Of a DNA stretch of 64,000 nucleotides, positions 3,195 through 60,125 are shown piece by piece. Origin of the DNA: Acidaminococcus timonensis (lineage in GTDB: Bacteria > Bacillota > Negativicutes > Acidaminococcales > Acidaminococcaceae). The notes under the pieces were generated by a model that was given only the letters and a program-made list of their open reading frames with translations, did not search any database and was not told the origin of the DNA. The position numbers and the translations under genes were made by a program. Position 1 is the stretch's first letter. Each line of letters begins with the position of its first letter. The stretch covers positions 1,178,001-1,242,000 of the forward strand of contig NZ_FNWH01000006.1 of the NCBI RefSeq assembly GCF_900106585.1, in the 5' to 3' direction.

Positions 3195-3817
3195 TGTGCG
3201 TTCTCCTTTTCTTCCGGCTTCACGTCCGGCACAGGTTTCTTTTTGGGAGCTTTCATATTGAAGTTCTCCATCATTTCACTGAGGGAAGCTCCTTTCAGCC
3301 AGGCTTCCACGGCATCCGCCGCTTTGGCCAGTACGTGATTGATGGTTTCCCTGTCCTTTCCCCGAAAGGGATGGAGCACATGGCTGATCACGGCCTGCTC
3401 CTCATGGACCGGATGCCCAATGCCCACCTTAATGCGGGGATAGTCCTGGCTGCCCAGAGCCCGTTCGATGGATTTCAGACCATTGTGGCCCCCGGAGGAC
3501 CCTTTGCGGCGAATCCGCAGCGTACCCACCGGCAGATCCATATCGTCCTGGATCACCAGCACCTCTTCCGGCGGGATGTGGTAGAAATTGGCAAAATCCG
3601 CCACTGCCACCCCGCTGTTGTTCATGTAGGTGGTGGGTTTGATGAGATAACATTTCTCCGGCATCCGTTTTTCCAGGTAGGTGGCATTGTCAGCCTTGCG
3701 CCAGCCGCTTTCCTCACCCCAGCGGCTGGCCAGGATGTCCGCCACCATGAATCCGATGTTGTGCCGGGTACCGGCATATTCCTTTCCAATGTTGCCCAGG
3801 GCAACGACTAATTTCAT
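3191..3817 (-). CDS. pth: Peptidyl-tRNA hydrolase
   Basis: Releases peptides from peptidyl-tRNAs that drop off the ribosome. 208 residues. Conserved GNIGKEYAGTRHNIGF contains the catalytic His and the Asn that positions it; the IQDDMDLPVG and GGHNGLKS motifs are also intact. The C-terminus is a longer Lys/Glu/Pro-rich tail than in E. coli. Start ATG 3817 is preceded by GGAGAG about 10 bases away. A TTG six codons upstream overlaps that site and is unlikely. Followed directly by galU. Confidence 0.95.
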   Translation of the reverse strand: MKLVVALGNIGKEYAGTRHNIGFMVADILASRWGEESGWRKADNATYLEKRMPEKCYLIKPTTYMNNSGVAVADFANFYHIPPEEVLVIQDDMDLPVGTLRIRRKGSSGGHNGLKSIERALGSQDYPRIKVGIGHPVHEEQAVISHVLHPFRGKDRETINHVLAKAADAVEAWLKGASLSEMMENFNMKAPKKKPVPDVKPEEKENAQ

Positions 3818-3839
3818 GGCTGTAAAACTCTCCAATCTG

Positions 3840-3866
3840 TCAGTGGTTAGTGATTGGTGGCTGGTG
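3840..3866. repeat. Degenerate CACTAGT-type heptamer tract
   Basis: A run of imperfect GGTTAGTGATTGGTGGCTGG heptamers resembling the tandem part of repeat family A in reverse orientation. No flanking hairpins of the full unit are recognisable. Confidence 0.4.
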
Positions 3867-3885
3867 CCTCTGGCAGACCTGGGAA

Positions 3886-3970
3886 CGGACGTCCCTTATG
3901 GGCCGTCCCTACAAAAACAACGTATGATACATGAAATGCGTAGGGGCTGCCCATGAGGGGAGCCCGTCCG
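3886..3970. repeat. Imperfect inverted repeat (MITE-like), single copy
   Basis: The left arm beginning CGGACGTCCC and containing GTCCCTAC pairs imperfectly with a right arm containing GTAGGGGC and ending GCCCGTCCG, around a central AT-rich spacer. It lies in the prs-pth gap. Mobility is not shown; no transposase is nearby. Confidence 0.5.
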
Positions 3971-4004
3971 TGGTCTCCCGGAGGGAATCCAGCCATTGCC
4001 AAAT

Positions 4005-4030
4005 AAGGGGCTGTCACAGGACAGCCCCTT
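4005..4030 (-). terminator. Terminator-like hairpin downstream of prs
   Basis: A perfect 11-bp stem AAGGGGCTGTC/GACAGCCCCTT just after the prs stop codon. The minus-strand tail is ATTTGG, so the T-run is short and termination may be partial. Confidence 0.6.
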
Positions 4031-4044
4031 ACACCATGTGTACT

Positions 4045-5010
4045 TTAGATTTCGAACAGTTGGCTGATGGACAGCTGGTTGTAAATCCGCAGGATGGTTT
4101 CTGCCAGGATCGGAGCCACAGACAGCTGGGTGATCTTCGGATGCTTTTTGTTGGGCGGCAGAGGAATCGTATTGGTCACGATCAGTTCCTTGATTTCGGA
4201 TTGTGCAATACGGCTCAGAGCCGGATCCGTCAGGATCGGGTGGGTTACGCAGGCGTAGATGTCTTTGGCACCGAATTTCTTCAGCGCCTTGGCGCCTTCA
4301 CACAGAGAACCGGCGGTATCTACGATATCGTCCACCATGATGCAGATTTTACCTTCCACGTTACCGATCAGGTTCATGACTTCTGCCACGCCAGGTTCAG
4401 GCCGTCTCTTGTCGATGATGGCCAGTCCGCATTCCAGACGGTTGGCAATGTTCCGGGCACGGCTTACACCGCCCAGATCCGGAGAAATGACCACCATGTC
4501 TTCCGGAGCGAAGCCTTTTTCTTTTACATAGTCGGCCAGGATCGGGCCGCCGGGCATATGATCCACAGGGATATCAAAGAAGCCCTGGATCTGGGCCGCA
4601 TGAAGATCCACGGTTACCAGACGGGTAATGCCAGAAACGGTCATCAGATCTGCCATCAGTTTGGCAGTGATGGGTTCACGGCCGCGGGCTTTTCTGTCCT
4701 GCCGGGCATAGCCATAGAAAGGAACTACCGCCGTGATATGACGTGCGCTGGCTCTCTTGAAAGCATCGCACATGATCAGCAGTTCCATGACGTTATCGTT
4801 GACTGCCGGTCCGCAGGTCGGTTGGATGACAAATACATCCTTGCCACGGACACTTTCATTGATCATGACTTGTACTTCACCGTTGTTGAAGCGGTTAATG
4901 ACCGCATCCCCTACCGTGGTACCCAGATAGGCAGCGATTTCCCGTGCCAGATCAGGATTGGCGTTACCGGAGAAAATAGCCATGTCTTCGCCTGTTTTAT
5001 CACCCAACAT
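4045..5010 (-). CDS. prs: Ribose-phosphate pyrophosphokinase
   Basis: Makes PRPP from ribose-5-phosphate and ATP for purine, pyrimidine, His and NAD synthesis. 321 residues. Visible are RFNNGEVQV, the flexible loop region YARQDRKARGREPITAKL, the catalytic VDLHAAQIQGFFD segment and the PRPP-binding VDDIVDTAGSLCEGA motif. GTGGGGGTA lies about 10 bases before the ATG. It has its own strong promoter. In many Firmicutes prs directly follows glmU; here three unrelated genes separate them. Confidence 0.96.
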   Translation of the reverse strand: MLGDKTGEDMAIFSGNANPDLAREIAAYLGTTVGDAVINRFNNGEVQVMINESVRGKDVFVIQPTCGPAVNDNVMELLIMCDAFKRASARHITAVVPFYGYARQDRKARGREPITAKLMADLMTVSGITRLVTVDLHAAQIQGFFDIPVDHMPGGPILADYVKEKGFAPEDMVVISPDLGGVSRARNIANRLECGLAIIDKRRPEPGVAEVMNLIGNVEGKICIMVDDIVDTAGSLCEGAKALKKFGAKDIYACVTHPILTDPALSRIAQSEIKELIVTNTIPLPPNKKHPKITQLSVAPILAETILRIYNQLSISQLFEI

Positions 5011-5052
5011 ACAATTAATACCCCCACTGCTTATAATTTAAATCTATTAAAA

Positions 5053-5081
5053 AGTATACAACTCATTGCCCTGTATGGCAA
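5053..5081 (-). promoter_or_regulatory. Promoter of prs
   Basis: On the minus strand, TTGCCA and TATACT are separated by exactly 17 bases. The -10 lies about 45 bases before the prs ATG. Confidence 0.7.
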
Positions 5082-5180
5082 GGAGTTATTTTTCACACTC
5101 CATCGTCTGCAAAAAATTCCACCGGCATTTCCTGCCTGTTCCAGGACTTCCTTCTGCACGCTTCTCGTTTCCCTGTCTTG

Positions 5181-6137
5181 CTAGGATACCAGCAGCATGA
5201 CCAGCGGCACCACCACCACAAACAGCAGCGTGCCAATGGTGACCAGGTTGGCAGCGTAAACCACGTCACCCTTGCCCTGTTCGGCCAGGATTGGCAGCAC
5301 AGCCAGGGTGGGCACAGCACTCTGCACGATAAAAGTCTGGCTGGCGATCACCGGCTGGGCCGATCCCAAAAGAGCCGCAAGGCCGAATATCCCAGCCGTC
5401 AGTACCGGGCTCAGGACGAATTTACCGACCATGGCAACAAGGGTATCCCTGTCGAAGCGGATGCTGGAAAGTCCGGCCACCGAAAGACTGATGCCAATAT
5501 AGATCAGTGACAATCCTGTCACCATATTGCCCAGATAGTTCAATGTGGCGAACAGAGGCTTCGGAACCTGGATGCCCAGTAAAAGGACCAGGAAAGCCGC
5601 CACACCTCCCACCAGCGGTGCCTGCAGAAGCCGTTTCGGCTGGAAGCAGGAGCCTCCCACAGCATCCGAGGAAGAACTGGAGTCATTGACCACCAGCGTG
5701 GCACCAATGGTCCAGATGGAAAACAGACTCAGCACATAAAAAACAAGAAAATAGGAGATGGCTTTATCGCCAAACAGCGCTGCATTCAAGGGCATACCGA
5801 TGAAGAGGCTGTTTGTATTGACGATGCCGTTGATGAAACTGCCCCGGCGTCCCCGGGGAATCCGGCAAACTTTCACAAGAAGGACACTGATCGCATACAA
5901 GACAACCAGCACCCCGGCGCCCAGGAGCAGCGGCTCCTTCAGTGTTCCCAACCGGGAAAGGTCCAGGGTTTTCAACACAGAAACGAAAATGGACGACGGC
6001 AGGGCGATATTCATCACCAGAAAGGCAAGATTAGCATTTAAGCCATCGTTGATGAATTTTTTCTCCCGCAGGAAATATCCCAGCGCCATCAGGAAAATAA
6101 TGGGCAGGATATCTTCAATGATTTCCAAGAGCAGCAT
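5181..6137 (-). CDS. AEC family transporter (auxin efflux carrier/malate permease type)
   Basis: A 318-residue membrane protein with about ten hydrophobic helices in two halves, as in the AEC family of organic-anion carriers. LFLREKKFIND-like residues near 22-32 and the GIVNTNSLFIGMPL segment near residue 105 are typical of the family. A Ser-rich loop (near residue 150) separates the halves. GAGGTGAGG precedes the ATG. Substrate is not decidable from sequence; malate or another small carboxylate is plausible in a fermenter of organic acids. Confidence 0.8.
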   Translation of the reverse strand: MLLLEIIEDILPIIFLMALGYFLREKKFINDGLNANLAFLVMNIALPSSIFVSVLKTLDLSRLGTLKEPLLLGAGVLVVLYAISVLLVKVCRIPRGRRGSFINGIVNTNSLFIGMPLNAALFGDKAISYFLVFYVLSLFSIWTIGATLVVNDSSSSSDAVGGSCFQPKRLLQAPLVGGVAAFLVLLLGIQVPKPLFATLNYLGNMVTGLSLIYIGISLSVAGLSSIRFDRDTLVAMVGKFVLSPVLTAGIFGLAALLGSAQPVIASQTFIVQSAVPTLAVLPILAEQGKGDVVYAANLVTIGTLLFVVVVPLVMLLVS

Positions 6138-6212
6138 TTCCTCACCTCAACTCGTTATCCTTTCCCCTCAGCTGCCTTTCAGGGAAATATCCTTCAGGAC
6201 CTGTATCATGGA

Positions 6213-7025
6213 TCATTCCAGCAGCATGATCCGGTCTACATCCGCCATGATCACGCCTGTGGTTCCGTTGAATCGATCCAGGATCTTCCGCATTTCCCGG
6301 GAATCCTGCACCGGTTTATCCAGTTTGAGGGCAGCCATGCTCAGCATGGGCATGTAATACTGCACCCTGCAGTCCATTTTTTTGGCCAGTTTTTCCACGT
6401 CTTTCCGGGTCATCCCCCAATCAAGGTGCAGCAGCACCATTTGGTCGGAATAGGCTTCACCCGTAAAACCATTGCGGATCAAATGCCCTTCATGGGTTTC
6501 CTGAAAAGGATTTCCCTGGACAGACTCCGGAGATTTCCGAGCAGAGGCTTCCTTGCTGGCGGCTGCACCCGGACGGGTGAAGCGGACACTGGTGATCTGC
6601 TTCTCCTGATTGATGGTGACATGGGCTTCCAGTTCCTCTGCTCCGGCTGCCTTGTCCTGTCTGATCCGGAATATGGCATCCCCTGCCTTCAGGGCCGTGA
6701 AATGCAGCCTGGTTACGGACAGCTTTGTCTGTTCCCCGGTGCCCTGGGTTACAGTCCGGTCATCCAGTCTCAGCAGGGCCGGATCCAGGTTCTCCACAAC
6801 CCATCCCATATTCCCCTCTGCGTTCCCTTTCAGGTTCAGCGTCAGGGTATCATCCTGTACGGCCAGGTCATAGCCGGAATAGACTTCCTTTGATGGAGTG
6901 CCGTCTGCCCGGTACTGGACGCTGGCTGCCTGCGTAAGGGATCCTTCTGCTCCCGTTACAGCCGGCAGCCCCAGGGCCAGCAGCGGCAAAATTACCATGA
7001 TGGTTTTCCAATTCAATTGATGCAT
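6213..7025 (-). CDS. Secreted protein with chagasin-like and subtilase-propeptide-like domains (putative dual protease inhibitor)
   Basis: About 270 residues. A signal peptide spans roughly residues 1-26 (hydrophobic MVILPLLALGLPAVTG, then A-E). Residues about 45-140 show the spacing of chagasin/I42 inhibitors: a G..GNMGWVVEN segment, a GTGEQ turn, then FTALKAGDAIFRIR. Residues about 185-270 resemble S8 propeptide/I9 modules: YSDQMVLLHLDWGMTR...VEKLAKKMDCRV...ALKLD...ILDRFNGTTGVIMADVDR. Both calls are by eye and tentative; no catalytic protease domain is present. The start is the ATG 10 bases after AGGAGG; a GTG three codons earlier is too close to it. Confidence 0.55.
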   Translation of the reverse strand: MHQLNWKTIMVILPLLALGLPAVTGAEGSLTQAASVQYRADGTPSKEVYSGYDLAVQDDTLTLNLKGNAEGNMGWVVENLDPALLRLDDRTVTQGTGEQTKLSVTRLHFTALKAGDAIFRIRQDKAAGAEELEAHVTINQEKQITSVRFTRPGAAASKEASARKSPESVQGNPFQETHEGHLIRNGFTGEAYSDQMVLLHLDWGMTRKDVEKLAKKMDCRVQYYMPMLSMAALKLDKPVQDSREMRKILDRFNGTTGVIMADVDRIMLLE

Positions 7026-7092
7026 TTCTGTCACGCCTCCTGTTTTCCATCTTACTTCTTTTTGGCAGTGAAGTAAATGTCAGGAAAATTCC

Positions 7093-7121
7093 TTTTCTCG
7101 TTCTCCCCCATAGGCTATAAT
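7093..7121 (+). promoter_or_regulatory. Probable promoter of the FMN reductase gene
   Basis: A perfect TATAAT at 7116-7121 with a weak TTTTCT-like -35 about 17 bases upstream. Transcription would start about 85 bases before the gene. Confidence 0.45.
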
Positions 7122-7214
7122 AGATGGACAGCCCCTCATAGGATCCAATTCCATGAGAAATACCCTCTCCGGGTCAGTGTCCCAGGGAGATGGCACAAGG
7201 AGGAAACTGCCTGC

Positions 7215-49776: not shown

Positions 49777-49811
49777 AAAAGGAACTGTCCCGACGGGCAG
49801 TTCCTTTTTTT
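49777..49811 (+). terminator. Terminator of popT
   Basis: AAAAGGAACTG/CAGTTCCTTTT stem followed by more T. Confidence 0.85.
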
Positions 49812-49821
49812 GTCACAGCCA

Positions 49822-49851
49822 TTGACTCTTATGTTAGTATGTGCTAACATA
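49822..49851 (+). promoter_or_regulatory. Promoter of feo operon with overlapping operator palindrome
   Basis: TTGACT-17-TAACAT promoter. The palindrome TATGTTAG-N6-CTAACATA (49830-49851) covers the spacer and the -10, so a bound repressor would block polymerase. The same TTAG-N6-CTAA core recurs before feoB. Confidence 0.7.
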
Positions 49852-49902
49852 CTCTGTATGGAAGTTTTATTCCATGAATTCAGTGAGAAAAGAGGTAGCA
49901 TC

Positions 49903-50115
49903 ATGCCCTTGACATTTGCGGATGAAGGCGTGTCTCTGACAGTCCTGCGCGTAGGCGGTTCTCCCAAGGTTCGGACCCACCTGGAAAACCTGGGCATCAC
50001 CCAGGGTGCTGTAATTTCCATTGTGCAGCATACCCCCAGCGGACTCATCCTGAACATCCGGGAATCCCGGGTAGCCATCAGTATGGAAATGGCTGCAAAG
50101 ATTACAGTTCAATAA
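49903..50115 (+). CDS. feoA: FeoA family protein (first copy)
   Basis: 70-residue SH3-like protein that assists FeoB in ferrous iron uptake. LRVGGSPKVRTHLENLGITQGAVISIVQ carries the family's LxxLGI.xG pattern. GAGGT lies about seven bases before the ATG. Followed 21 bases later by a second feoA. Confidence 0.88.
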   Translation: MPLTFADEGVSLTVLRVGGSPKVRTHLENLGITQGAVISIVQHTPSGLILNIRESRVAISMEMAAKITVQ

Positions 50116-50136
50116 CATTGTAGGAGGGGAAATTCA

Positions 50137-50364
50137 ATGACTACATTGAAAGATGCCCAGACGGGCAAAGATTACGAAGTCGTGAAACTGCACGGCACAG
50201 GTGCCATCAAGCGCCGGATCATGGACATGGGAATCACCAAGGGTACGCCCATCCACATCCGTAAAGTGGCTCCTCTGGGAGATCCCGTGGAAATGACAGT
50301 ACGCGGTTATGAACTTTCCCTGCGGAAAGCCGATGCTGAAATGGTCGAAGTGAAAGAGCTGTAA
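50137..50364 (+). CDS. feoA: FeoA family protein (second copy)
   Basis: 75 residues, SH3-like. KLHGTGAIKRRIMDMGITKGTPIHIRKVAPLGDPVEM is a typical FeoA core. It differs clearly from the first copy, so it is an older duplication rather than a recent one. GTAGGAGG lies upstream of the ATG. Confidence 0.92.
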   Translation: MTTLKDAQTGKDYEVVKLHGTGAIKRRIMDMGITKGTPIHIRKVAPLGDPVEMTVRGYELSLRKADAEMVEVKEL

Positions 50365-50379
50365 CATTTTTATCATGTT

Positions 50380-50395
50380 GTTAGCTTTTTCTAAC
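50380..50395 (+). promoter_or_regulatory. Second TTAG-N6-CTAA palindrome, between feoA and feoB
   Basis: GTTAG-CTTTTT-CTAAC, with the same arms and 6-base spacing as the site over the feo promoter. It may be an internal operator or a weak AU-rich hairpin. Confidence 0.5.
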
Positions 50396-50438
50396 TTATT
50401 TTTGTTAAAGTGAGATTTGGGAAAGAAGGTAATTATAC

Positions 50439-52604
50439 ATGGAATTCAAGATTGCCCTTGCCGGCAACCCCAATACCGGTAAAACCACCCTGTTCAATGC
50501 CCTGACGGGTTCCAACCAATTCGTCGGCAACTGGCCCGGTGTTACCGTAGAAAAAAAGGAAGGGAAACTGACTGGCCATCCGGATGTGATCATCCAGGAC
50601 CTGCCCGGCATCTACTCTCTTTCCCCGTACACCCTGGAAGAAGTGGTATCCCGTACGTACCTGGTGAAGGAACGGCCGGATGCCATCCTGAACATCGTGG
50701 ATGGTACCAACCTGGAACGGAACCTGTATCTGTCCACCCAGCTGGCTGAACTGGGCATTCCCATGGTCATGGCTGTCAATATGATGGATATGGTCCGGGC
50801 AAACGGAGACATCATCAACATCGACAAACTGTCCCAGCGGATGGGCTGCCCGGTGATCGAAATTTCCGCCCGTACCGGGGAAGGCATCAAGGAAGCCGCA
50901 GACCTGGCTGCCAAAACTGCCAAGCACCAGCAGGTGATGGTGGCCAGGCACTCCTTTGATGGCCCTGTGGAACACGCTCTGGCCCATATTGAAGAAGCCA
51001 CCCAGGGAATGCTGCCTGCCCATCAGGAACGGTGGTATGTGATCAAACTGTTCGAACGGGATGCCAAGGTCCAGGAAGCCCTGAAGCTGCCCCAATCCGT
51101 CCTGGATCACATCGACGGCGATATCGAAGCCGTGGAACAGGAACTGGATGACGATGCAGAATCCATCATTACCAACGAACGGTATAAATACATCAGTTCC
51201 ATCATTGGCGAATGCAACATCAAAAAGAGCAAAGGCAAGCTGACCACCTCCGACAAGATCGACAAGATTGTCACCAACCGGTGGCTGGCCCTCCCCATCT
51301 TCGCTGCCATTATGTTCCTGGTCTATTATGTTTCTGTAACCACCATCGGCGGCGATGCCACGGACTGGGTGAACGATACCCTGTTCGGCGATATGCTGAT
51401 TCCTGCAGCCGATGACCTGATGGACAGCCTTGGTGTTGCGGACTGGCTGCATGGCCTGATCGTGGACGGCATCATTTCCGGTGTGGGCGCTGTGTTGGGG
51501 TTTGTGCCCCAAATGGTGGTCCTGTTCATTTTCCTGGCTTTCCTGGAAGCCTGCGGCTATATGGCCCGTATCGCCTTCATCCTGGACCGTGCCTTCCGGA
51601 AATTCGGCCTGTCCGGTAAATCCTTCATCCCCATGCTGATCGGTTCTGGCTGCGGCGTGCCCGGCATCATGGCTTCCCGTACCATTGAAAACCAGTCCGA
51701 CCGGCGGATGACCATCATGACCACCACCATGATTCCCTGCTCTGCCAAAATGCCCATCATCGCTCTGATTGCCGGTGCATACTTCGACGGGGAATGGTGG
51801 GTAGCGCCCTCCGCTTATTTCGTGGGGATTTTCTCCATCATCATTTCCGGCATCATCCTGAAAAAAACCAAACTGTTTGCCGGAGATCCTGCTCCCTTCG
51901 TCATGGAACTGCCTCCCTACCATATGCCCACGCTGGGCAACATCGGCCGCAGCGTATGGGAACGGAGTTCCTCCTTCATCAAGAAGGCCGGTACGGTCAT
52001 CCTGCTGTCCACCATCCTGGTCTGGTTCCTGTCCAGCTTCGGCTGGGATGACGGAGCTCTCACCATGCTGGATGATGATGCGCTGAACGACAGCATCCTG
52101 GCCTTCATCGGAAATAAAGTGGCATGGATCTTCTCCCCTCTGGGCTGGGGCGACTGGAAAGCCGCTGTAGCTGCTTTCACCGGCCTGATTGCCAAAGAAA
52201 ACCTGGTAGGTACCTTCGGGATCCTGTACGGGCTGGCTGACGCTGCAGAAGACGGCGAAGAATTCTGGGGTACCTTTGCCCAGGACTTCTCCGTACTGAG
52301 TGCTTATTCCTTCCTGGTATTCAACCTGCTGTGTGCTCCCTGCGTGGCAGCCATGGGCGCCATCCGGAGAGAAATGAACAGCGGCAAATGGACCCTGATT
52401 GCCATTGGGTATCAGTGCGGTTTCGCATACTGCATGGCCCTGATGTTCTACCAGTTTGGCAGCTTCATCTCCACCGGTGCTTTCACCCTGGGTACGGCGG
52501 TTGCCTGTGTGGTCCTGGCTGTGATGGTTTACCTGCTGTTGCGCCCGGCTCCCAAGTATAATGGAGAAATCAAGATCAAAGATGCGGCAGATGCTGTAGA
52601 CTGA
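50439..52604 (+). CDS. feoB: Ferrous iron transport protein B
   Basis: Main ferrous iron importer. 721 residues: N-terminal G domain with GNPNTGKTTLFNALTG (G1), GVTVEKKEG (G2), QDLPGIYSLSP (G3) and NMMD (G4); a helical GDI-like spacer (about 170-270); then a membrane domain with two gate motifs, including IGSGCGVPGIMASRTI. No FeoC gene follows; a small Cys-rich membrane protein takes that position. Confidence 0.97.
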   Translation: MEFKIALAGNPNTGKTTLFNALTGSNQFVGNWPGVTVEKKEGKLTGHPDVIIQDLPGIYSLSPYTLEEVVSRTYLVKERPDAILNIVDGTNLERNLYLSTQLAELGIPMVMAVNMMDMVRANGDIINIDKLSQRMGCPVIEISARTGEGIKEAADLAAKTAKHQQVMVARHSFDGPVEHALAHIEEATQGMLPAHQERWYVIKLFERDAKVQEALKLPQSVLDHIDGDIEAVEQELDDDAESIITNERYKYISSIIGECNIKKSKGKLTTSDKIDKIVTNRWLALPIFAAIMFLVYYVSVTTIGGDATDWVNDTLFGDMLIPAADDLMDSLGVADWLHGLIVDGIISGVGAVLGFVPQMVVLFIFLAFLEACGYMARIAFILDRAFRKFGLSGKSFIPMLIGSGCGVPGIMASRTIENQSDRRMTIMTTTMIPCSAKMPIIALIAGAYFDGEWWVAPSAYFVGIFSIIISGIILKKTKLFAGDPAPFVMELPPYHMPTLGNIGRSVWERSSSFIKKAGTVILLSTILVWFLSSFGWDDGALTMLDDDALNDSILAFIGNKVAWIFSPLGWGDWKAAVAAFTGLIAKENLVGTFGILYGLADAAEDGEEFWGTFAQDFSVLSAYSFLVFNLLCAPCVAAMGAIRREMNSGKWTLIAIGYQCGFAYCMALMFYQFGSFISTGAFTLGTAVACVVLAVMVYLLLRPAPKYNGEIKIKDAADAVD

Positions 52605-52678: not shown

Positions 52679-52819
52679 ATGGGTACATTCATTGTTGGAA
52701 TGGTCCTGTTTCTCATTGTGGCAGCGGTGATCCGCTCCATGATCCGGGATCATAAAAACGGAAAAAGTTCCTGCGGAGGAAACTGCGGAAGCTGTGGACT
52801 CTGCCGGGGAAAGAAATAA
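52679..52819 (+). CDS. FeoB-associated Cys-rich membrane protein, 46 aa
   Basis: One membrane helix (residues 2-20, TFIVGMVLFLIVAAVI), a short charged linker, then a Cys cluster SCGGNCGSCGLCRGKK with four cysteines. This matches the small Cys-rich proteins that follow feoB in many Firmicutes, presumed to bind iron or signal redox state at FeoB. GAAAGTGAGAG precedes the ATG. Too short for automatic calling in many pipelines. Confidence 0.88.
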   Translation: MGTFIVGMVLFLIVAAVIRSMIRDHKNGKSSCGGNCGSCGLCRGKK

Positions 52820-52852
52820 AAAAACGGGATGCCGGTGCGCATCCCGTTTTTT
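52820..52852 (+). terminator. Terminator of the feo operon
   Basis: AAAACGGGATG/CATCCCGTTTT stem with T6, right after the stop codon. Confidence 0.85.
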
Positions 52853-52991: not shown

Positions 52992-53020
52992 TTGACAAAC
53001 GTATATGAAAAGTGTACTAT
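52992..53020 (+). promoter_or_regulatory. Promoter of the acyl-CoA dehydrogenase fusion operon
   Basis: Consensus TTGACA and TACTAT separated by exactly 17 bases, giving a leader of about 110 bases. Confidence 0.8.
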
Positions 53021-53135: not shown

Positions 53136-55043
53136 ATGTTATTCACCACCACACAGGAACACGAGGAATTTCGTGCCAAGGTCCGCGGATTTGCGGAAGC
53201 CAAGATCAAACCCATTGCGTTCATGCTGGACAAGGAAAACAAATTCCCTGACGAACAGGTTAAGGAAATGGGAGAACTGGGATGGATGGGCATCCCCTTC
53301 CCCAAAGAATATGGCGGTGCCGGGCTGGATTATATCAGCTACGCCATTGCCGTGGAAGAACTGGCCCGGGTGGACGGGGGCGCCGGGGTCATCCTGTCTG
53401 CCCACGTATCCCTGGGGTCCTACCCCATCTTTGCTTTCGGGACGGAAGAACAGAAACGGAAATACCTGGTGCCCCTGGCCTCCGGGAAAAAGATCGGCGC
53501 CTTCGGCCTGACGGAACCCAATGCCGGTTCTGATGCCGGGGAAACGGAAACCACCGCTGAATTCGACGGCACCCACTGGATCCTGAACGGGAACAAGATC
53601 TTCATCACCAATGCAGGCAAAGCCGATACCTATGTGGTATTTGCCGTCACCGAACCGGGCAAAGGCACCCGGGGCATCAGCGCTTTCATCGTGGAAAAAG
53701 GCATGCCCGGGTTCACCTTCGGGGACCACTACGACAAACTGGGCATCCGCTCCTCTGCCACAGCAGAACTGATCTTCAACAATGTGAAACTGCCCAAAGA
53801 GAACCTGCTGGGCAAACGGGGCCAGGGCTTCAAGATTGCCATGGCGACCCTGGACGGAGGCCGGATCGGCATTGCCGCCCAGGCACTGGGGATTGCTCAG
53901 GGAGCCTATGAAGCCGCTCTGAACTATTCCAAGGAACGGATCCAGTTCAACGCCCCCATCTGCCAGAACCAGGGTGTATCCTTCAAACTGGCAGATATGG
54001 CCACCAAACTCCGGGCAGCCCGGTTCCTGGTATACAGTGCTGCGGAACTGAAACAGGAACACCAGGACTACGGCATGGAAAGCGCCATGGCCAAGATGTA
54101 CGCTTCCGATGCAGCCGTCTCCATCACCAACGATGCCCTGCAGATCTTTGGTGGCACCGGCTACCTGAAGGGCATGGATGTGGAACGGTTCTATCGGGAT
54201 GCCAAGATCACCACCATCTACGAAGGCACCAACGAAATCCAGCGGGTGGTCATCGCCTCCCACATTACCGACAAGATGTCCGTGGCCAAGCACGGAGGCG
54301 CTCCCAAACAGAATGTGGCCATCACCGGTGCCCGGAAGAAACAGATCTTCAAAGATGGCACGCCGGAAGAACAGGTTGCTGCCCTGGTGGAAGCCCTGAA
54401 GAACGACGGCTATGACTTCACCGTAGGCATCCCTCTGGATACCCCCATCTCTGATGCGGAACGGGTGGTCAGTGCCGGTAAGGGCATCGGCGAAAAAGCC
54501 AATATGAAACTGATTGAAGATCTGGCCCGCCAGGCCGGTGCTGCGGTAGGCTCCTCCCGTCCTGTAGCAGAAACCCTGCAATATGTTCCCATCGACCGGT
54601 ATGTGGGCATGAGCGGCCAGAAATTCAACGGCAACCTGTACATTGCCTGCGGTATCTCCGGAGCCGTCCAGCACCTGAAGGGCATCAAGAACGCCACCAC
54701 CATCGTGGCCATCAACATCAATGCCGGTGCCCCCATCTTCAAGAACTGCGACTATGGGATCGTAGGCGACGTGAAGGTAATCCTGCCGCTCCTGGCCAAA
54801 GCCCTGAACAACGGCCAGCCCAAGAAACCTGCTCCTCCGATGGTGAAGATGAAGAGACCGCTGATCCTGAAAGACATGCCGGAAGGCCGGTACGTCTGCA
54901 AGGGATGCGGGTATGAATACAACCCGGATCTGGGCGACCCGGATGCGGATGTAAAGCCGGGAACCAAATTCCAGGATCTGCCGGAAGACTGGGTCTGCCC
55001 GCTGTGCAACTCCGCCAAGACTGAATTCGTACCCGTAAAGTGA
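53136..55043 (+). CDS. Acyl-CoA dehydrogenase/ETF-alpha FAD domain/rubredoxin fusion protein
   Basis: 635 residues in three parts. Residues 1-380: acyl-CoA dehydrogenase with the FAD/acyl-CoA signatures [14 protein letters not shown] and [15 protein letters not shown] and the catalytic Glu in [10 protein letters not shown]. Residues about 405-570: the C-terminal FAD domain of ETF alpha ([34 protein letters not shown]), without the rest of an ETF. Residues about 585-635: rubredoxin with CKGCGY and CPLC. Electrons could pass from acyl-CoA through two FADs to the iron. ATG 53136 has GAGGAGG upstream. The flavodiiron gene follows 16 bases later. Confidence 0.93.
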
Positions 55044-55059
55044 GAAAAGGAGCATAACT

Positions 55060-56271
55060 ATGGAATGTGTAAGAAAATTAACCAATGACTTATACTGGGT
55101 CGGGGCGGATGACCGCCGGCTGGCATTGTTTGAAAACATCCACCCCATTCCCCGGGGCGTTTCCTACAACTCCTATCTGCTGCTGGACGAAAAGACCGTG
55201 CTGTTCGACACTGCGGACTGGTCCGTATGCAAGCAGTTCCTGGAAAACGTGGAAGGGGTCCTGGATGGCCGGAAGCTGGACTACCTGATCATCAACCATG
55301 TGGAACCGGACCATGCCGCTTCCATTGAAGAAGTGCTGCTCCGCCATCCGGAAACCACCGTCATCAGCAATGAACAGGCCTTCACCCTGATGGATCAGTT
55401 CGGTTACCGGGTGGAAGGGGAAAAACAGATCGTGGTGAAAGAAGGCGACACCCGGAAATTCGGGAAGCACACCATTGCTTTCGTAGCCGCGCCCATGGTC
55501 CACTGGCCGGAAGCCATGGTCTCCTTCGATCTGACCACGGGCACCCTGTTCTCCGCCGATGCCTTCGGTTCCTTCGGGGCCCTGGGCGGCCGGATCTTCA
55601 ATGATGAAGTGAACTTCGACCGGGACTGGCTGGATGATGCCCGCCGGTACTACACCAACATCGTGGGCAAATACGGGCCTTTCGTGATGGATCTTCTGGG
55701 CAAGGCCAGCCAGCTGGACATCAAGATGATCTGTCCCCTCCACGGACCGGTGTGGCGGAACAACATCAAATACATTGTGGACAAATACATCCACTGGGCC
55801 ACTTATGAACCGGAAGAAAAAGGCGTACTGCTGGTCTATGCCTCCATGTACGGCAACACAGAAAGCACCGCTTCCGTACTGGCGGCCAAGCTGGCGGAAA
55901 AGGGCATGACCAACATCGCCATGTACGATGTATCCAAAACGGACGTTTCCTATCTGATTTCCGATGCTTTCAAGTACAGTCACCTGGTGCTGGCTTCGGT
56001 GACCTACAACCTGGGCATCTATCCCAAGATGCTGAACTTCCTGGAAGACATGAAGGCCCTGAATCTGCAGAAGCGGATCGTGGGCATCATCGAAAACGGG
56101 TCCTGGGCCTGCACCGTAGGCGGCCTGATGACCGACTTCCTGGAAAACAACATGAAGGCCATGACCGTCCTCCAGGATGGCGTGACCATCAACTCCCGGA
56201 TGACAGGAGGCCAGGAACGGAGCATGAACGACCTGGTGGATGGAATCCTGAATTCCATGAAAGAGGCATAA
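55060..56271 (+). CDS. Flavodiiron protein (A-type flavoprotein, O2/NO reductase)
   Basis: 403 residues. The metallo-beta-lactamase-like domain holds the diiron ligands in order: H80-x-E82-x-D84-H85 (NHVEPDH), H148 (MVHWPE), D167 (FSADAFG) and H228 (PLHGPVW). From about residue 255 a flavodoxin domain binds FMN (VYASMYGNTEST). No C-terminal rubredoxin, so it needs an external one; the upstream fusion supplies a rubredoxin domain. Reduces O2 to water, or NO to N2O. Second gene of a two-gene operon. Confidence 0.95.
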   Translation: MECVRKLTNDLYWVGADDRRLALFENIHPIPRGVSYNSYLLLDEKTVLFDTADWSVCKQFLENVEGVLDGRKLDYLIINHVEPDHAASIEEVLLRHPETTVISNEQAFTLMDQFGYRVEGEKQIVVKEGDTRKFGKHTIAFVAAPMVHWPEAMVSFDLTTGTLFSADAFGSFGALGGRIFNDEVNFDRDWLDDARRYYTNIVGKYGPFVMDLLGKASQLDIKMICPLHGPVWRNNIKYIVDKYIHWATYEPEEKGVLLVYASMYGNTESTASVLAAKLAEKGMTNIAMYDVSKTDVSYLISDAFKYSHLVLASVTYNLGIYPKMLNFLEDMKALNLQKRIVGIIENGSWACTVGGLMTDFLENNMKAMTVLQDGVTINSRMTGGQERSMNDLVDGILNSMKEA

Positions 56272-56275
56272 AAAC

Positions 56276-56308
56276 AAGGCGCTGTGGAAAAATCATCCAC
56301 AGCGCCTT
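56276..56308 (+). terminator. Terminator of the flavodiiron operon (half of a split family A repeat)
   Basis: AAGGCGCTGTGGA/TCCACAGCGCCTT stem followed by TATTTC. The rest of the repeat continues beyond the ISL3 insertion at 60126. Confidence 0.75.
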
Positions 56309-56399: not shown

Positions 56400-56543
56400 T
56401 AATTTCACCATCGAAAGCAGTAAAATCCGAGAACGGAATCGTTCAAAGTTGCGAAAACCAAATGCTACTCTCTTTAACACCTTAATCTTATTGTTCATTC
56501 CTTCCGTAAAACCATTCGAATACGCTTGATGTGAATGTCAACC

Positions 56544-56629
56544 AAAAAGTGAGCCACTTGCTCACGAATTTTTGAGCCACTCATGCTCATGAAAAAGTGA
56601 GCCACCTGCTCACGAATTTTTGAGCCACT
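56544..56629. repeat. IS21 multiple terminal repeats
   Basis: Two 38-base direct repeats (56544-56581 and 56592-56629), each starting AAAAAGTGAGCCAC and ending TTTTTGAGCCACT. Related AGTGGCTCACTTTT sequences lie at the other end near 58863 and 58905. These are probable transposase-binding sites. Confidence 0.8.
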
Positions 56630-57384
56630 TAAGCATTCGTCATCTTCTGTTTGCTGCTGTGCAAACGGTAAGACTGTCCATTCATATTTAAAACACTGGA
56701 GTGGTAGGTGAGCCGGTCGACCAATGCGGCAACCAGCGTCTCGCTGGCAAACATCTCCGTCCATTTGGAAAACTCCAGGTTTGTCGTAATCACTGTACTG
56801 GCTCTTTCACTCCTTTCGGCAATCACTTTGAACAACATTTCAGATTCTTCCTGGTTGAATCTTGCATAACTTAATTCATCTATGAGCAGCAGGTCTGCTC
56901 CGCTCAAAGTTTTTTCCATCTTGCGCAACTGGTAATCATCATGGGCTTCACATAGCTCAGTTGCCAGCGTTGTGGCATTGCAGAAAATGACCTTCCAGCC
57001 CAGCAGACAGGCTTTCACTCCAAGGGCTGTCATCAGATGTGTTTTCCCCGTCCCCGGATTACCGATCATCACCAGGTTCTCATGCCTCTTTATGAAATCG
57101 CAGCTTGCCAGCTGCTTCACATATTCAGGCCGAACATGTTCCAGCCTTGTGAGATCAAACTCTTCCAGGGTCTTGAGCATGGGAAAGTGCGCTCTCTTCA
57201 GCCTGCGTTGCTGCTGTTTTTCCTGACGGGATGCATATTCCCGCTTCATCAACCCGAGCACGAATTCTTCCAGGCTTTGTCCGGGGCGGAATTTTTCCGC
57301 TGGTTCACCGACGTCTTTGAAAGTGGGAAGTTTAAGCTGTTTCGCATAGAAACGGAGTGCTTCCTTTACACCTGCGTCCTGCAC
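56629..57384 (-). CDS. istB: IS21 helper ATPase IstB
   Basis: 251 residues, AAA+ DnaC-like. Walker A GNPGTGKTHL near residue 108, Walker B ADLLLIDELSYARF near 168 and sensor TTNLEFSKW. Works with IstA to choose and capture target DNA. GTG start six bases after GGAGG, overlapping the end of istA by 19 bases. Confidence 0.93.
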   Translation of the reverse strand: MQDAGVKEALRFYAKQLKLPTFKDVGEPAEKFRPGQSLEEFVLGLMKREYASRQEKQQQRRLKRAHFPMLKTLEEFDLTRLEHVRPEYVKQLASCDFIKRHENLVMIGNPGTGKTHLMTALGVKACLLGWKVIFCNATTLATELCEAHDDYQLRKMEKTLSGADLLLIDELSYARFNQEESEMLFKVIAERSERASTVITTNLEFSKWTEMFASETLVAALVDRLTYHSSVLNMNGQSYRLHSSKQKMTNA

Positions 57385-58808
57385 ATAGTGCCTCCTTCCT
57401 GTAAAAGCTGGTCATACATTGAAAGATCTGTCTGCTGCACTTTTACCGGGTCGGTAAGGATATGCGCTTTCCTGTCGGAAACCATAAATTGCTCTTTGTG
57501 CTCCCAAAAAGCGTTCTCTCCGTCGGCAGCACATAGCCGCAGAATCTCAACCAGCTGTTCGCTGCTGAATGCATTGGTCTCCAGGAACTGTAGCAGGGCA
57601 GCACTGAGGTTCTGCCGTACCGGTTTTGCTTCCAGGATGCTGCGCGGCTTGTATTCCAGCAACGGCAGATAATGCGCAAGTTTCAGAATCTGCTGGTTTT
57701 GCCCATAGTTTCTGGCGTGTTCAGCAATCAGTTCCCCCTTGGCAAAGATCCGAATCTGTTCAGCATAGGCTCGCACCGTGACCTCCTGTCCCACATATTT
57801 CACGGGCACAGAATAATCGTTAGCGACGAATCGGACAACAGAAAAGGGTGTTACTCGGCAGACTGCTGCTCTGCTTGCATCAAAAGGGCTGCCCGGCAGT
57901 GGGCAGAGACGTTTCTGGTCTTCCAGGAGCAGATCCTTTACAGGGTTCTCCCGTCCAGGGATTTTATGCGTATTCGCATACACCTTGCATTTATCCAGCA
58001 GGAGTCTGTTCAATTCGTCCAGCGCATCTACTCTGGGTACAGGGACAAAGACATTCCGGCGGACCCAGCCTACGAGATTCTCCACCAGTCCTTTTTCATT
58101 TCCACTCCGGACATTGCAGAAAACGGTATGGAAGCAATAATGGGCTGCAAATGCTTCATACTTTTCCTGGGCAATGGCTTCTTTGCCACCTTTTTCCTTA
58201 ACGGCTACCCGGTCATTGTCAAAAATGACCTTAGCAGGGACGCCCCCAAAGAATTCCAGAGCTTTTCTCAATGCTTCAAGTAAAGCTTCCGTATTCTTCC
58301 TGCGGAAACAGACCACGAAAGGAGCACAGCTGTAGCAAAGGCGGGCACAAAAGAAATTGACTTTAGTACGCACTCCTTTGAGGTAAACCACAGCTTCACC
58401 CCAATCAATCTGCATCGCATCACCTGGAAGGTGAGCCAAAGGGACGAAGGCTTCCTGAAGATTGCCACGTAACAGATGAACGCAGCGCCGGACTGTGCTT
58501 GCACCTCCTGTAAATCCAGTTTCTTCTACCAGGCGGTCATAAATCCGCTTGGCTGTGTGGTGCTGCTTCTTATTGGGTTCTTTCGCATCTTCATCCAGAC
58601 AGCTCTGGATGAATCGAGTCACCTCCTCTGTAATCACTGCAGATGTCCGATGATATTCGCAGCGGATGCCCGGGAGTGCATTTCCTTTGCAATACTTGGC
58701 CACAGTATTACGGGAGATATGCATTTCTCTGGCAATCTGGCGGATAGATTTTCCATCGCGAATGTACATCTGGCGAATTTGACCATAATCTTTCATAGTG
58801 ATGACCAT
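57366..58808 (-). CDS. istA: IS21 transposase IstA
   Basis: 480 residues. N-terminal helix-turn-helix (GKSIRQIAREMHISRNTVAKYCKG), then an rve/DDE core with LPGDAMQIDWGEAVV (first Asp), VIFDNDRVAV (second Asp) and a Glu in NEKGLVENLVGWVRRN. The beta-barrel C-terminal domain includes VRFVANDYSVPVKYVGQEV. The first ATG abuts TTAGG; a second four codons later (58796) is an alternative. Confidence 0.93.
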   Translation of the reverse strand: MVITMKDYGQIRQMYIRDGKSIRQIAREMHISRNTVAKYCKGNALPGIRCEYHRTSAVITEEVTRFIQSCLDEDAKEPNKKQHHTAKRIYDRLVEETGFTGGASTVRRCVHLLRGNLQEAFVPLAHLPGDAMQIDWGEAVVYLKGVRTKVNFFCARLCYSCAPFVVCFRRKNTEALLEALRKALEFFGGVPAKVIFDNDRVAVKEKGGKEAIAQEKYEAFAAHYCFHTVFCNVRSGNEKGLVENLVGWVRRNVFVPVPRVDALDELNRLLLDKCKVYANTHKIPGRENPVKDLLLEDQKRLCPLPGSPFDASRAAVCRVTPFSVVRFVANDYSVPVKYVGQEVTVRAYAEQIRIFAKGELIAEHARNYGQNQQILKLAHYLPLLEYKPRSILEAKPVRQNLSAALLQFLETNAFSSEQLVEILRLCAADGENAFWEHKEQFMVSDRKAHILTDPVKVQQTDLSMYDQLLQEGGTMCRTQV

Positions 58809-60125
58809 CCTAACATCAATCCCCTTAGAATCAAATTACTGACTCTAGTATAGGGGAACTTGTTTCAGAGTGGCTCACTTTTTCATGAGCATTTAGATCT
58901 TAAATGGCTCACTTTTATATTAGCATTCACAGCTTGACTCAATCCTTCCAAAATCTCTGTCTTCCAATCAGTGAACGTCTTTATAACACTCTTGAATTCT
59001 TCAACCCCACTTTCTTCGACTAATGATAACCAACGAGATAAGAATGAAGCAACAGCAGACCGTTCTTTCATAGAAAACACCTTAAAGAATGCCTCTTTTA
59101 AGGCATAGGCTCTCTGTAATTCTGAAGACTGCTTCAAGATTTCCCGAAGGCTGGCCAGTTCTTCTTCTGTCAGACGATCACCCCTCTTGTTCAAGATATG
59201 TTTGTTTCTCTTGAAATAAATTCTTTTTTCGTCGAATAACTTTTGTACATTTTTCCTAACCCGTTCAAGCGCCCAAATGACCAGTCTCTGTATGTGGAAT
59301 CGGTCACCAATAATTGTTGCACCAGGAAACATCGCTCTGATGACCTTGCGGAAAAGTGACGAAAGGTCCATTACGACAAATTTTACTTTCAATCGCTCTG
59401 CTCTTGAAAATTGGCTAAAATAACGAATCAATTCCAGCGCTGTCCTCTTTGGCAAAATATCGAGAGTTTCATGACGCTGAGGGTCATTCACAGCGACCTG
59501 GTATCTTTGCCCATGAGCGTTCCCACGAAATTCGTCTAAAGAAAGAACTTCAGGCAGATGGAGAGGCCTTTTAAAAGTAAGTCCATCAAAATACCGGATT
59601 ACGGTGGAAACAGAGACACCATGGCTTCTGGCAATAGCTTTAAAGCTCGCCAGTTCAGAACAGGCTTGGATGATGCTGTTCTTTACATCGTTAGAACGCC
59701 GCTGGTAATGCTCGACGCCAGGAATTTTTTCATAAAATGTCTTATGGCAGCAAGGGCAAAAAAATCTTCTTTTATGAACAATAGCAGAAACAGGATGGGT
59801 GTTCCAGTGCCCTAAGAGGACTTTTTGGTCCCGATAGTCCTTAATATGAAGAATTTTATGATGACAGTAGGGGCAACGAGAAGCTGTAGAAGTGAATTCC
59901 ACGTAAAGGAGGAGGCTGGATCCCAATTTTTCAAATTCTTTTATGGAACCCTCTTCCCAATGGAAGCTTTTTTCGATAAAATGAAAGAAAGACATATCTA
60001 TTCTCCTTTCAGTTCTTCGTGGTGGTTGAGGTGAAATGTAGCTTAGATATGTCTTTATTTTATCGTAAGACAAGGGGTCTTGTGAACAGGAGTGTCCACA
60101 AGACCCCAACATTTATTATAGAACC

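Follow-up and report, generated by a model that had tools for sequence, protein, structure and literature searches.

Two genes on the forward strand are the subject of this analysis of the window, the whole stretch of 64,000 nucleotides of Acidaminococcus DNA. The first (53136..55043, + strand; ATG at 53136, stop ending at 55043) encodes a fusion protein of 635 aa, a homologue of BCR, and the second (55060..56271, + strand; ATG at 55060, stop ending at 56271) encodes a flavodiiron protein (FDP) of 403 aa on the same strand after a gap of 16 bases. A candidate sigma-70-like promoter (TTGACA and TACTAT separated by 17 bases) was found by scan at 52992..53020 on the + strand as the single such site 5' of the fusion gene, and a terminator-like stem-loop of 13 pairs at 56276..56308 (+) is predicted to end the two-gene unit. 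Between the two genes the scan detected no + strand terminator-like site; it did find a small one within the coding region of the fusion, at 53413-53427. A first-pass annotation of this DNA had likewise placed both genes under one promoter; the 4 promoter matches of the scan are not above those of shuffled sequences (mean 2.8, sd 1.8). The hexamers of the 52992-53020 site, with at most one change in the second, are kept in five of six Acidaminococcus upstream regions, namely in the window and L003-L006 and with L007 as the exception; the window, L003 and L004 represent near-identical strains.

The first-pass annotation had described the upstream protein as a fusion of an acyl-CoA dehydrogenase (ACD) retaining its catalytic glutamate, an ETF-alpha domain and a rubredoxin, and the one downstream, after 16 bases, as an FDP without a rubredoxin of its own. 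Both descriptions proved correct. In a single frame of the fusion gene Pfam identified Acyl-CoA_dh_N (6-118), Acyl-CoA_dh_M (122-217), Acyl-CoA_dh_1 (229-377), ETF_alpha (438-518) and Rubredoxin (585-631), which translates into approximate extents of residues 1-380 for the ACD domain, 400-560 for the ETF-alpha FAD domain and 585-631 for the rubredoxin. Residue E363 (codon 54222..54224, + strand), which we take to be the catalytic base of the ACD domain, is Glu in 84/84 aligned rows and lines up with the YEGT motif in PDB chains 5ol2_C and 4l1f_A. The ETF-alpha FAD-binding core found by Pfam (aa 438-518) is encoded at 54447..54689 (+), and S474, R475, Q495, H513, N527 and D539, presumably FAD contacts as in other ETFs, are likewise kept in all 84 rows. 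The rubredoxin domain (54888..55028, + strand, from Pfam) contributes C588, C591, C621 and C624; these four cysteines occur in 82 of the 84 rows, and the other two (genomes G150 and G389) are without the whole domain. Alignments of the fusion to ETF-alpha chains mostly start at chain residue ~189-215 (171-273 over the 14 chains listed) and Pfam gave no ETF-beta match, so that ETF-alpha domain I and ETF-beta, as present in canonical or bifurcating ETFs, are absent from the fusion and a bifurcating flavin would not be expected. Acidaminococcus massiliensis and a strain carrying the label A. fermentans have copies that are 100% identical (rounded) to the fusion over its 635 residues. AlphaFold2 modeling (38 rows) yielded a mean pLDDT of 82.6 and a pTM of 0.70 with good individual domains, and the linkers 381-394 and 578-584 as well as two loops of the ACD domain stayed under pLDDT 50. 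Because of these poor linkers and the lack of a reliable inter-domain geometry, we claim no cofactor distances. Foldseek retrieved A. fermentans 4l1f as the best match of the model, and the best 50 of 746 matches all aligned over ~370-390 columns, which is the length of the ACD domain.

In the FDP, Pfam recognized the metallo-beta-lactamase-like diiron domain ODP (34-229) and Flavodoxin_1 (258-344) and returned no match to a rubredoxin domain. By its predicted domains the protein is a class A flavodiiron protein. Residues H80, E82, D84, H148, D167 and H228, which we take to be the diiron ligands on the basis of aligned flavorubredoxin chains, are kept in 75/75 rows. The FDP alignment covers the window and 73 of 80 related loci and omits two loci at contig ends without FDP as well as L016, L032, L043, L046 and L081, where the gene is partial or interrupted.

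The iron-uptake genes feoA and feoB (49810-52604) are found upstream of the fusion gene and precede an operon for an enzyme predicted to be rich in iron; a terminator-like stem on the - strand (52819-52852, scan) lies between the feo genes and the operon. Directly downstream, an IS21-type istB and a Mu-type transposase gene occupy 56629-58808 on the - strand, followed by an ISL3-type transposase gene (58883-60112), and short repeated GTGAGCCACT-type motifs occur near 56540-56630. In other organisms an Rrf2-like gene is often the upstream neighbor: one query at E 1e-5 placed it immediately 5' of the fusion gene in 38 of the 74 loci with at least 600 upstream bases, the 6 of 80 loci with fewer being omitted. 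A preprint from 2026 (PMC13404960) describes the same arrangement for gut Clostridia. Control by an adjacent Rrf2-type regulator was considered for Acidaminococcus and rejected, since the same query found such a gene in 0/4 Acidaminococcus loci, and in the own genome none is close to the operon, the nearest being ~65 kb away. We also do not claim a PerR/Fur-like box in front of the fusion gene (start at 53136). The site closest to a PerR-type consensus is weak, with three mismatches in the window, and L003-L005 have theirs at the equivalent AT-rich element. Shuffles of the same composition score as well in 17% of cases for the window and in 9%, 12% and 5% for L003-L005; in L007 the site is found in a different place and is matched by 8% of shuffles.

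Among the best 80 of 579 matches to the fusion, a selection that biases the linkage count to close relatives, an FDP gene follows downstream on the same strand in 78 loci. The gap is at most 100 bases in 71 of these 78 and 568 bases at its widest, and in the remaining two loci the contig stops 2 and 86 bases past the end of the fusion gene. Clostridia names are common among these 80 relatives, and the fusions from outside Acidaminococcus are 74-78% identical to that of the window. A survey of the Negativicutes for the three-domain order and its FDP link, which the first-pass annotation had suggested, detected the full-length fusion in 22 of 300 genomes of the class (9/9 within the sample for the own genus). 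In all 22 the FDP gene adjoins it, cut by a contig end in G008 and G243. A sample of 398 genomes of the phylum gave six matches at the strict limit, comprising the own genome, two genomes already counted, G325 and G606, which carry the full-length fusion with FDP next door, and G389, whose fusion is without rubredoxin. Taken together, FDP is adjacent in 24/24 whole genomes with a full fusion from the class and phylum samples, a count that omits G238, in which frame changes interrupt both genes; the 80-locus and whole-genome samples share species and are not independent. The pairing of BCR and FDP is not confined to Negativicutes, and since full-length homologues in other genera share both the order of domains and the neighboring gene, it is not a matter of chance. 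In G238 (L106, G238:C13:55500-61000) an Rrf2-like gene, BCR and FDP stand in a row, and the frame changes could reflect an assembly error or decay. A plasmid copy exists on the 142 kb pMM35_02 of Vescimonas fastidiosa (L104, NZ_AP023417.1), where Rrf2 regulator, BCR and FDP are consecutive at 3545-7144, with a nitroreductase and an MBL-fold gene coming after them; this plasmid has been typed as non-mobilizable.

Two relatives have the fusion without its rubredoxin. That of G150 (L105:974-2647; G150:C38:7473-9146), a genome of the same taxonomic order, comprises 557 aa with 70% identity to the window protein, that of G389 (L115:4886-6571; G389:C5), a genome of the same phylum, 561 aa with 61% identity, and both end after the ETF domain and retain the catalytic and the ETF FAD residues. 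Neither G150 nor G389 has a flavodiiron gene beside the short fusion, and the flavodiiron proteins encoded elsewhere in these genomes are just 29-32% identical to the FDP of the window. Thus all 24 full fusions with a rubredoxin domain have an adjacent FDP and both short ones are without it, an association that by simple counting would arise in 1 of 325 cases and is only a hint because the genomes are few and related. In a tree of 30 rows, with long branches, many weak forks and a root placed for drawing only, both short fusions are placed among the BCR proteins, suggesting that each lost its rubredoxin separately. In G210, of the same genus as G150, there was no match to the fusion at the limit used in a genome that is only 75% complete. 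It is conceivable, if rather doubtful, that the ACD-EtfA part is an exchangeable electron source drawing on acyl-CoA and that the proteins of G150 and G389 feed an acceptor other than the partner FDP. The short fusions also lend themselves to a natural experiment on the domain that communicates with the flavodiiron protein.

The own genome (2,297,059 bases in 6 contigs) was searched for the metabolic setting of the pair. Four genes on the same strand form a cluster: a thiolase (Pfam Thiolase_N/C, above the TIGR01930 cut-off), a Bcd-like acyl-CoA dehydrogenase with 57% identity to the ACD domain of the fusion, a 3-hydroxybutyryl-CoA dehydrogenase (above the NF004474 cut-off) and an enoyl-CoA hydratase family protein whose best name, short-chain enoyl-CoA hydratase, scores below its cut-off. 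Two EtfB-EtfA pairs and two adjacent genes of the Rnf-Nqr family, with Rnf and Nqr not separated, are also encoded. On the basis of this gene set butyryl-CoA is likely available in the cell and crotonyl-CoA could be reduced again, an arrangement that has been proposed likewise for Fusobacterium in PMC12288474. The bifurcating Bcd-Etf is reported in a JBC article as first described in Acidaminococcus, and together with BOOR (see below) it would make a cycle between crotonyl-CoA and butyryl-CoA in this genus. One stand-alone rubredoxin and two other flavodiiron proteins are present in the genome as well, so that BCR and FDP need not be exclusive partners. A further acyl-CoA dehydrogenase gene with 46% identity to the ACD domain of the fusion is found ~650 bases beyond the window end (L107:1166-2299, - strand).

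The primary paper on the butyryl-CoA oxygen oxidoreductase (BOOR) is that of Bystrom and Wolthers (2024, Biochemistry 63:2352). In a review from the discoverers' group (PMC12288474), FN1423 of F. nucleatum is a flavodiiron protein encoded in a bicistron with a fusion of butyryl-CoA dehydrogenase, EtfA C-terminus and rubredoxin, and in this review and a JBC article of 2025 from the same group the FN1423-FN1424 pair carries the name BOOR. The review describes F. nucleatum BCR and FDP as an alpha4beta4 complex coupling the oxidation of butyryl-CoA to the reduction of O2 to H2O, and BOOR as encoded by many Firmicutes. The sequence features by which BOOR is recognized are found in the window: a Bcd-type ACD, the C-terminal part of EtfA and a rubredoxin in one protein, an adjacent class A flavodiiron gene on the same strand in a predicted bicistron, and the catalytic Glu, the ETF FAD contacts, the four rubredoxin Cys and the six diiron ligands. 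Over its full length the fusion is identical to the homologue of Fusobacterium vincentii (L103) at 467 of 636 positions (73%) and the FDP at 250 of 402 (62%); the F. vincentii pair is located on NZ_CP084075.1, a replicon of 2.1 Mb that was submitted as a plasmid, and its FDP starts 24 bases after BCR. We are therefore highly confident that the window pair is the Acidaminococcus version of BOOR, which would drive the reduction of O2 to water with butyryl-CoA. The wire from acyl-CoA via the flavodiiron protein to O2 that the first-pass annotation had drawn is the one reported for the F. nucleatum homologue in PMC12288474 and the JBC article of 2025.

By analogy to the described BOOR, we infer the same complex, activity and electron path for the window copy. 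The N-terminal FAD of BCR would oxidize butyryl-CoA to crotonyl-CoA and pass the electrons to the second FAD in the ETF-alpha domain, from where they would reach the rubredoxin iron one per step and then the FMN and the diiron site of the adjacent FDP, at which O2 would be reduced to water. The separate acyl-CoA dehydrogenase and Etf of the cell could turn crotonyl-CoA back into butyryl-CoA, so that O2 would provide an additional electron sink that does not draw directly on NADH. BCR and FDP most likely constitute a soluble enzyme with which an obligate anaerobe of the gut can convert O2 to water.

The first-pass annotation had named a butyryl- or glutaryl-type substrate and oxygen as the acceptor, noting that flavodiiron proteins reduce O2 or NO. 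With regard to the acceptor, O2 rather than NO is likely used by the window pair if the analogy to Fusobacterium is valid. A reduction of NO instead of, or besides, O2, by which the anaerobe would be shielded from NO of host or microbial origin, appears very improbable. The best PDB matches of the FDP are indeed named anaerobic nitric oxide reductase flavorubredoxin, and the Rrf2-type regulator that adjoins about half of the related loci belongs to a family with NO-sensing members according to PMC13404960. However, PMC12288474 describes the F. nucleatum complex as devoid of NO reductase activity. Furthermore, the FDP does not belong to the NorV flavorubredoxin NO reductases, as it has no rubredoxin and its 221.6 bits are far under the NCBIfam flavorubredoxin cut-off of 635, and no Rrf2 gene was found adjoining the four Acidaminococcus loci searched.

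As to the substrate, the butyryl part of the earlier proposal is favored over the glutaryl part. The ACD domain shares 56% identity with A. fermentans 4l1f and 58% with 5ol2, a C. difficile butyryl-CoA dehydrogenase, and PDB bit scores are higher for 5ol2 (471), 4l1f (448) and the butyryl-CoA dehydrogenase of M. elsdenii 1buc (403) than for the glutaryl-CoA dehydrogenases 3mpi (284) and 3d6b (210). The chain 6cxt, also named butyryl-CoA dehydrogenase, reaches only 214 bits, so the name of an enzyme alone cannot fix the substrate. Judged by its sequence, the ACD site seems nearer to butyryl and short-chain enzymes than to glutaryl ones, and butyryl-CoA is the likely substrate. There is little chance that its place is taken by glutaryl-CoA or by some other acyl-CoA formed in the degradation of glutamate or lysine. 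Acidaminococcus is an amino acid fermenter and the domain matches the NCBIfam glutaryl-CoA dehydrogenase model, but below the cut-off (318.5 vs 470 bits), and the PDB scores point the other way. That the fusion instead reduces crotonyl-CoA or another enoyl-CoA with electrons from rubredoxin or ETF, while the free-standing rubredoxin encoded in the genome serves the FDP, is extremely unlikely given the Bcd-like enzyme and two EtfBA pairs already present for enoyl-CoA reduction, the adjacency of FDP to all 24 full fusions and to neither of the two without the rubredoxin domain, and the direction from butyryl-CoA to O2 reported for Fusobacterium (PMC12288474), and the best NCBIfam match of the ACD domain, acryloyl-CoA reductase AcrC (484 vs a cut-off of 640), says little because the cell's own Bcd-like protein scores higher on this model (529.6 bits). 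Butyryl-CoA-driven reduction of O2 accordingly remains our reading of the pair.

BOOR has been published from Fusobacterium, with the statement that many Firmicutes have it, and the window pair is a further member of this known system. Its recovery indicates that a recently published enzyme logic can be found by reading raw sequence. Of the papers that name BOOR, two have no match to Acidaminococcus, Negativicutes, Megasphaera or Veillonella, and the 11 matches listed from a third are on Bcd/ETF or are references. Judging by titles and abstract openings, neither of the two papers listed as combining acyl-CoA dehydrogenase, rubredoxin and Acidaminococcus is apparently on a BOOR-type system.

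In comparison with known systems, the pair shares with the bifurcating butyryl-CoA dehydrogenase-Etf of A. fermentans (4l1f) the ACD domain at 56% identity and a homologous ETF-alpha FAD domain, whereas the fusion is without ETF-alpha domain I and ETF-beta and ends in a rubredoxin. We take PDB 4kpu to be the Etf of this A. fermentans complex. BOOR of F. nucleatum has the same three-domain fusion and adjacent class A flavodiiron protein, and all residue columns tested are conserved between the window and the F. vincentii pair. It differs in coming from another phylum, and the window has feoA and feoB upstream with no adjacent Rrf2 gene found. The BOOR pairs of gut Clostridia (PMC13404960) have both structural genes arranged as in the window but with the Rrf2-type regulator adjacent, unlike the four Acidaminococcus loci searched for it. 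Multidomain flavodiiron proteins such as that of C. difficile also feed O2 reduction through rubredoxin; there the electrons come from NADH, whereas in the window pair they are predicted to come from acyl-CoA, and this already described NADH-free disposal of oxygen would now extend to Acidaminococcus.
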